In this document: in pieces, positions 29,771-30,520 of the stretch | Numbering within the stretch: the stretch's first letter is position 1 | How the letters are laid out: each line of letters begins with the position of its first letter | Source: a virus | Reading direction: 5' to 3' (one strand) | IMG/VR virus record: IMGVR_UViG_3300007276_000146 | Span: 1-34,318 of that record | DNA: 34,318 nucleotides | The notes under the pieces: model-generated | The model's database searches: none | Told to the model about the DNA's origin: nothing | The model's input: only the letters and a program-made list of their open reading frames with translations | Made by a program: the position numbers and the translations under genes

Positions 29771-29953
29771 TTGAAACTGTATAGTTTAGAATATGAAAAG
29801 TGGTTAAGAGATCCTCGAATTTCAGCGGCTGTAGATAACTGTGAATTGAGTACTTTATATCAATGGTTATGGGATACTATGCAAAATGACAATGCACATG
29901 CTACCAAGTTATTATACAACGACAAGCACCAAAAAACGCAAGAAGAAGAATAA
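29771..29953 (+). CDS. Small hypothetical protein with TTG start
   Basis: A 60-residue protein (SLEYEKWLRDPRISAAVDNC, then LYQWLWDTMQNDNAHATKLL). TTG at 29771 has AAGGA 7 bases upstream, and no ATG fits. The end overlaps the tRNA-bearing ORF by 56 bases in another frame. The family is not recognised. Confidence 0.55.
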   Translation: MKLYSLEYEKWLRDPRISAAVDNCELSTLYQWLWDTMQNDNAHATKLLYNDKHQKTQEEE

Positions 29954-30269
29954 GACTAAATCTTTGATCGCGGCTGAAAAAGAACACCAGAAGTTTCTCA
30001 AGCGTATGGGTGTTAGTCAGACGAAACAAAGGGGACTTAGCTCAGTTGGGAGAGCGACGGCTTTGCAAGCCGTAGGTCAGGAGTTCGACCCTCCTAGTCT
30101 CCACCAATCTTCAAAACCCACCTGGAATTCAAGTATGTCTAAAAAAGAAACCAAAGAGTACAGCGGTAAGCGCAAACTCCTCGGTATCGCTACGATGCAT
30201 AAATCAAATATGGTTCCAGTGTTCAGTAAAGAAGATGCTGAAGAAATTGCAAGGATGAGAAGAGGATGA
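29898..30269 (+). CDS. Conserved phage protein whose reading frame runs through a tRNA gene
   Basis: A 123-residue ORF. The N-terminal part (MLPSYYTTTSTKKRKKK, then AAEKEHQKFLKRMGVS) and the C-terminal part (SKKETKEYSGKRKLLGIATM, then HKSNMVPVFSKEDAEEIARM) both resemble the two ends of one small conserved protein of marine T4-like phages. Between them (about residues 46-71) the frame translates the tRNA-Ala gene at 30031-30106 without a stop. ATG at 29898 is chosen because MLPSYYTT looks like a family start; 29886 is possible. Whether a full-length protein is made is unknown. The stop overlaps the next ATG. Confidence 0.6.
   Translation: MLPSYYTTTSTKKRKKKNKTKSLIAAEKEHQKFLKRMGVSQTKQRGLSSVGRATALQAVGQEFDPPSLHQSSKPTWNSSMSKKETKEYSGKRKLLGIATMHKSNMVPVFSKEDAEEIARMRRG
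30031..30106 (+). tRNA. tRNA-Ala (anticodon UGC)
   Basis: A 76-base cloverleaf with encoded CCA. The acceptor stem is GGGGACT/AGTCTCC with the G3-U70 wobble pair that identifies tRNA-Ala. The D stem is GCTC/GAGC, the anticodon stem ACGGC/GCCGT with loop TTTGCAA (anticodon TGC), and the T stem AGGAG/CTCCT with loop TTCGACC. All stems pair. It lies wholly inside the ORF at 29898-30269 on the same strand. Confidence 0.95.
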
Positions 30270-30520
30270 TTCGCAAAAGAATTGCTGACAAAGAAATGAT
30301 TGTCAACATCGATGGTCCTGATGGTAATGCATTCCATCTTATTGGTATCGCTGTAACTCTTGGAAGAGACACTTCCATGAAAGAAGATGAAATAAAACAT
30401 ATGAAACAAGAAATGATGGAAGGTAACTATATTAATCTTCTTAAAATTTTCGAAGAATATTGGGGAGAGTATGTTGTCCTTGAAACTAAAAATGAAGAAT
30501 ATTTGAAAGAAATGCGATGA
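30266..30520 (+). CDS. Conserved phage hypothetical protein
   Basis: An 84-residue protein with an N-terminal motif MIVNIDGPDGNAFHLIGIAV that I recognise as typical of a small conserved phage family of unknown function. The rest is helical and acidic (MKQEMMEGNYINLLKIFEEY). ATGA overlap upstream and downstream makes it part of the chain of coupled genes. Confidence 0.68.
   Translation: MIRKRIADKEMIVNIDGPDGNAFHLIGIAVTLGRDTSMKEDEIKHMKQEMMEGNYINLLKIFEEYWGEYVVLETKNEEYLKEMR

Follow-up and report, generated by a model that had tools for sequence, protein, structure and literature searches.

A complete tRNA-Ala gene within an open reading frame

The 34,318-base IMG/VR virus record studied here (the window, meaning the whole stretch of DNA analysed) carries a tRNA gene inside an open reading frame that runs through it without interruption, which raises the question of whether the same nucleotides serve as both tRNA and protein-coding sequence. 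A chance open reading frame across a tRNA is a well-known annotation artefact. ARAGORN and Rfam concordantly called a tRNA-Ala(TGC) on the plus strand at 30031-30106, and its score of 68.2 bits against RF00005 (gathering threshold 29) places it among cloverleaf tRNAs. The acceptor stem GGGGACU/AGUCUCC contains the G3-U70 pair, the anticodon is UGC and CCA is encoded at 30104-30106, confirming the complete tRNA-Ala(UGC) proposed in an earlier note made from the letters alone. A tmRNA identity was rejected, both programs calling a plain tRNA.

That note had placed the tRNA within a 123-residue frame opening at 29898. The nesting held up, but 29898 is a later in-frame ATG, from which the tRNA would span codons 45-70; the ATG at 29886 is the likelier start because homologues open with M-x-x-M-H-L-L-P, giving a host ORF of 127 aa. 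The locus is organised as follows.

29771..29953, + strand: upstream ORF overlapping the start of the host ORF
29886..30269, + strand: host ORF, 127 aa, open from ATG 29886 to TGA 30267-30269 and unbroken across the tRNA; matches phrog_27048
29886..30014, + strand: conserved N-part MTMHMLPSYYTTTSTKKRKKKNKTKSLIAAEKEHQKFLKRMGV, a basic stretch and a predicted helix (residues 25-41 in the model); N-part profile and dN/dS
30015..30030, + strand: 5' spacer, 16 nt
30031..30106, + strand: tRNA-Ala(UGC), 76 nt, CCA encoded, G3-U70, called by ARAGORN and Rfam; equals codons about 49-74 of the host ORF
30107..30137, + strand: 3' spacer, 31 nt, with an in-frame ATG (30135-30137) at its end
30138..30266, + strand: conserved C-part SKKETKEYSGKRKLLGIATMHKSNMVPVFSKEDAEEIARMRRG, predicted beta-beta-alpha (pLDDT about 85-90); C-part profile and dN/dS
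30266..30520, + strand: next gene, its ATG overlapping the host ORF stop (ATGA)

The host ORF thus overlaps neighbouring genes at both ends, and its neighbourhood consists of ordinary large-phage genes such as ribonucleotide reductase and primase. A DNA-level search of phage records found matches to the tRNA alone. The conserved last codons of the host ORF (KRR or MRR followed by the stop) often read AGGAGA-TAA right before the next ATG at many loci (for example L183 after 1930), and because of this position they may double as the ribosome-binding site of the next gene. Other loci share with position 30266 of the window an ATGA overlap between the host ORF and the next gene.

The regions flanking the tRNA belong to one conserved phage protein

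The window protein matched phrog_27048 with an E value of 1.6e-14 over residues 9-122 (profile positions 17-127 of 127). Several isolated phages (Acidovorax ACP17, Delftia PhiW-14, phage C48C1 and Synechococcus phage BUCT-ZZ01) encode tRNA-less homologues, uninterrupted proteins of about 110-130 aa in which an ordinary linker occupies the tRNA position. Close relatives that lack the tRNA (e.g. L245, L262, L278, L284, L285, L316 and L328) have in its place a linker of comparable length and unrelated sequence. These comparisons bear out the suggestion that the two flanks are opposite ends of a single conserved phage protein. They modify the view of the tRNA as an insertion: the frame was kept, but rather than being simply added, the tRNA replaces a variable linker in the better-aligned cases. 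In the predicted structure model of the window protein, a low-confidence linker (residues 45-95) separates the helix from the beta-beta-alpha end, and the stretch encoded by the tRNA is predicted to fall within it. Sequence searches of Pfam, NCBIfam, PADLOC and the PDB assigned no function and no solved relative to the protein, and a fold search in BFVD returned only uncharacterised phage proteins with low TM-scores.

Nested tRNAs of many kinds occur in homologous genes

Scans of viral contigs (IMG/VR), some of which chose loci by the N-part alone, were combined with records from other searches to give 278 N-part loci with 151 distinct ORF sequences. A tRNA together with a recognised C-part was found in 118 distinct homologous ORFs, the tRNA lying on the sense strand in every case and the frame being open in 118/118. 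Ala, Arg, Pro, Thr, Trp or Ile tRNAs were found singly, while pairs comprised Ala+Pro, Ala+Thr, Arg+Pro, Arg+Met, Thr+Pro and Pro+Thr; at least seven kinds have therefore been nested in this family, one or two per gene, and they have been repeatedly exchanged. All 90 distinct nested tRNAs end in CCA. The viruses with nested-tRNA genes form a large group of marine phages. Among individual loci, L062 (2477-2851) keeps the frame through a tRNA-Arg with its C-part replaced by a different, coiled-coil-like tail; the nested tRNA at L108 (2364-2459), 96 nt with an extra arm, is called Ile(TAT) with unsure identity; and the tRNA-Pro genes at L014 (460-536), L103 (2402-2478) and L065 (2663-2739) share a divergent D-arm (GGAA...TCC) with one pair lost.

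One such gene belongs to an isolated phage, which makes the arrangement directly testable. Gene 124 of Methylophilales phage Melnitz (MZ577097) encloses a tRNA-Trp (L183, 1695-1768), the other three annotated tRNAs of this phage all being intergenic; the predicted residues of gene 124 that the tRNA-Trp encodes include GSIPCSPAIR and CYGSTSDSKPLGR. In the paper on Melnitz the nested tRNA is listed as gene 125, and passages on tRNAs in that paper make no mention of the nesting within gene 124 (PMC9004378). The record MZ577097.1 has only a CDS at this position, without a tRNA feature and with the locus tag _125 absent. This mismatch between record and paper is a warning to annotators.

The reading frame is retained through tRNA exchange, gain and loss

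Were the frame free to drift, about a third of tRNA changes would be expected to preserve it, and fewer still would leave it open. The 118 ORFs contain 36 spacer/tRNA architectures with tRNAs of 74, 76, 77, 78, 79 and 96 nt, and the total length is a multiple of three in 36/36, a count drawn from related rather than independent loci among which recombination could copy ready-made in-frame cassettes. For these reasons the exact probability of frame retention is uncertain. A tree of 76 C1-type genes, for which the N- and C-parts were the only input, required at least 30 changes of tRNA content, and on the C2-type tree tRNA-Trp was gained or lost about twice. All 90 distinct nested tRNAs lie in an open frame, with a mean of 1.37 of the three frames open per nested tRNA. 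Of 119 nested tRNAs, which are interrelated, 118 had 40 or more open codons on each side within a single sense frame, as against 1 of 117 control phage tRNAs taken from five other tRNA-rich phage regions and parts of Melnitz. The conserved flanks and the frame kept in all homologues rule out a chance ORF over the tRNA.

These architectures also bear on whether the tRNA could behave like an intron, with the mRNA halves rejoined after its excision or with ribosomes hopping over it. RNA ligases do occur in this broad phage group, for example in Caulobacter phage Cr30 near its tRNA-less homologue; however, excision would leave the N- and C-parts out of frame in 27/36 architectures while retention keeps them in frame in all 36, and the window spacers sum to 47 nt, so that we regard an intron-like tRNA as hardly conceivable.

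The frame persists even where a tRNA has decayed. Locus L110 contains a recognisable dead tRNA-Pro with a 3-nt insertion in the anticodon loop and no Rfam match, its frame being open, and L061, L065 and L116 retain stumps of a second, lost tRNA with the frame kept; loss of a tRNA thus does not release the frame. A different junction was seen at the end of a contig from a Rhodospirillales MAG (L346, 1-230; NZSA01000014.1), where the N-part and the 5' half of a phage-like nested tRNA-Pro are joined to a 3' half that differs. Immediately past this tRNA the frame ends, and an unrelated, possibly bacterial, long ORF follows. Either the contig is a chimera fused at tRNA sequence in common, or recombination genuinely produced this junction. 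It is the only odd junction at a nested tRNA that we saw that bears on the idea of an att site.

Both protein and tRNA appear to be under selection

Median dN/dS was 0.11 for the N-part and 0.13 for the C-part, indicating purifying selection; a dead protein is excluded by these values. In the stems of the nested tRNA-Pro, two-sided changes occurred in 14/21 pairs with 99.3% of cells paired, covariation that was matched by 0/500 shuffles and was far above slid controls as well. The nested Ala, Thr, Arg and Trp tRNAs displayed compensatory stem changes like those of tRNA-Pro, and stem covariation excludes a dead tRNA. With the flanks under purifying selection and the tRNA-Pro stems covarying, both products look selected, as far as sequence comparison can tell. 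The earlier note had left two readings, a frame kept with the tRNA segment translated or a dead protein with its frame kept by chance; in-frame architectures throughout and the low dN/dS strongly favour the former.

One could still suppose that the tRNA no longer works and is kept purely as coding filler, much as the dead tRNA of L110 persists as a linker. Yet each tRNA kind represented by several members shows compensatory stem changes, CCA is encoded in 90/90, anticodons are intact and the window tRNA scores 68 bits, leaving this supposition a negligible probability.

Read-through of the tRNA best accounts for the arrangement

Taken together, the comparisons show, at the level of homologous sequences, that the N- and C-parts make up one protein, that its frame is kept when tRNAs are swapped, gained or lost, and that the cloverleaf is maintained by compensatory changes. 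We consider it highly likely that this is a dual-use gene whose tRNA doubles as a translated linker and a processed RNA. The gene would encode a small protein composed of an N-terminal basic and helical part, a linker encoded by the complete tRNA gene, and a C-terminal beta-beta-alpha part. Ribosomes would translate unprocessed transcripts straight across the tRNA, producing a disordered linker of about 25 residues per tRNA, while other copies of the transcript would fold at the tRNA and, as tRNA biology suggests, release it through RNase P at the 5' end and 3' nucleases. Such release would destroy that mRNA for full-length protein, and competition between RNase P cleavage and translation for one transcript, as previously suggested for this locus, is plausible. 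A linker that tolerates almost any sequence could therefore act as a landing site for the exchange of tRNA cassettes, provided that the frame survives.

Start codons past the tRNA bear on two other explanations. The window taken alone, with its internal ATG, could be read as three separate genes (an N-protein, a tRNA and a C-protein) whose common frame is meaningless or reflects mere translational coupling. By contrast, all 36 architectures are in frame, the tRNA-less homologues are one continuous protein, and no ATG, GTG or TTG lies between the tRNA and the C-part in 30/118 ORFs, including 18 of the Trp/C2-type with Melnitz. Separate genes appear largely refuted on these comparisons and are very improbable, and we found neither the unrelated flanks nor the independent genes that would have spoken against the original proposal.

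Under the second explanation, the cut 3' RNA is translated from an in-frame ATG before the C-part into a short C-terminal protein, which would be the main product or an additional one. An ATG exactly one codon ahead of the C-part (C1-type) is present in 47 of 63 stretches bearing a tRNA but in only 5 of 65 without one, and the window has this ATG at 30135 with GGA upstream. However, a Shine-Dalgarno motif is missing at 41 of those 47 ATGs, the ATG may be shared by descent, the 30 ORFs without an internal start would have no such product, and the constant frame of the N-part would be left unexplained, so we think this explanation unlikely. A point against read-through itself is that about half of the ORFs lack a clear Shine-Dalgarno motif ahead of their own start. 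Given that removing the tRNA breaks the frame in 27/36 architectures and that no internal start exists in 30/118 ORFs, read-through is the best explanation.

With read-through as the preferred reading, we tentatively raise the further idea, on which we would place a modest bet at most, that the nesting might form a built-in switch. A transcript would be either translated whole or cut to yield the tRNA, protein output during infection would be set by ribosome loading relative to tRNA processing, and the ATG past the tRNA would let the cut 3' RNA give a shortened protein in many lineages.

Relation to known systems

To our knowledge, a complete tRNA gene read in frame within a conserved protein has been undescribed so far, and the full text of open-access papers yielded no description of in-frame nested tRNAs. 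The general class of overlapping genes and two-use RNAs is known; the nested in-frame tRNA form is not. It offers a natural case of a single RNA that has to accommodate both tRNA maturation and translation, and by such nesting compact genomes could gain tRNAs at little cost in length.

As in the overlapping (dual-coding) genes of viruses, a single stretch of sequence is under two selections, but here a structured tRNA is paired with a protein frame on the sense strand, and the tRNA has been exchanged for others many times. Like tmRNA (ssrA), the arrangement combines tRNA structure and translated sequence in one RNA. tmRNA, however, functions as a single molecule made of a tRNA-like domain and a short tag-encoding ORF, whereas here the whole of an ordinary tRNA is contained in a longer ORF, and any given transcript would serve as either tRNA or mRNA. 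Transcripts that supply both a protein and a tRNA or other functional RNA are also known from bifunctional bacterial RNAs, which combine a regulatory RNA and a small ORF, and from mixed tRNA-mRNA operons (E. coli tufB and tyrT/tpr, for example); in these operons the tRNA is outside the coding sequence or merely touches it, while here it is inside and in frame. The nested tRNAs resemble the ordinary CCA-encoding tRNAs of phage tRNA clusters, which by contrast are intergenic. Finally, the window protein matches phrog_27048 along its length, and C-part relatives in isolates such as ACP17, PhiW-14 and C48C1 come without a tRNA in the gene.
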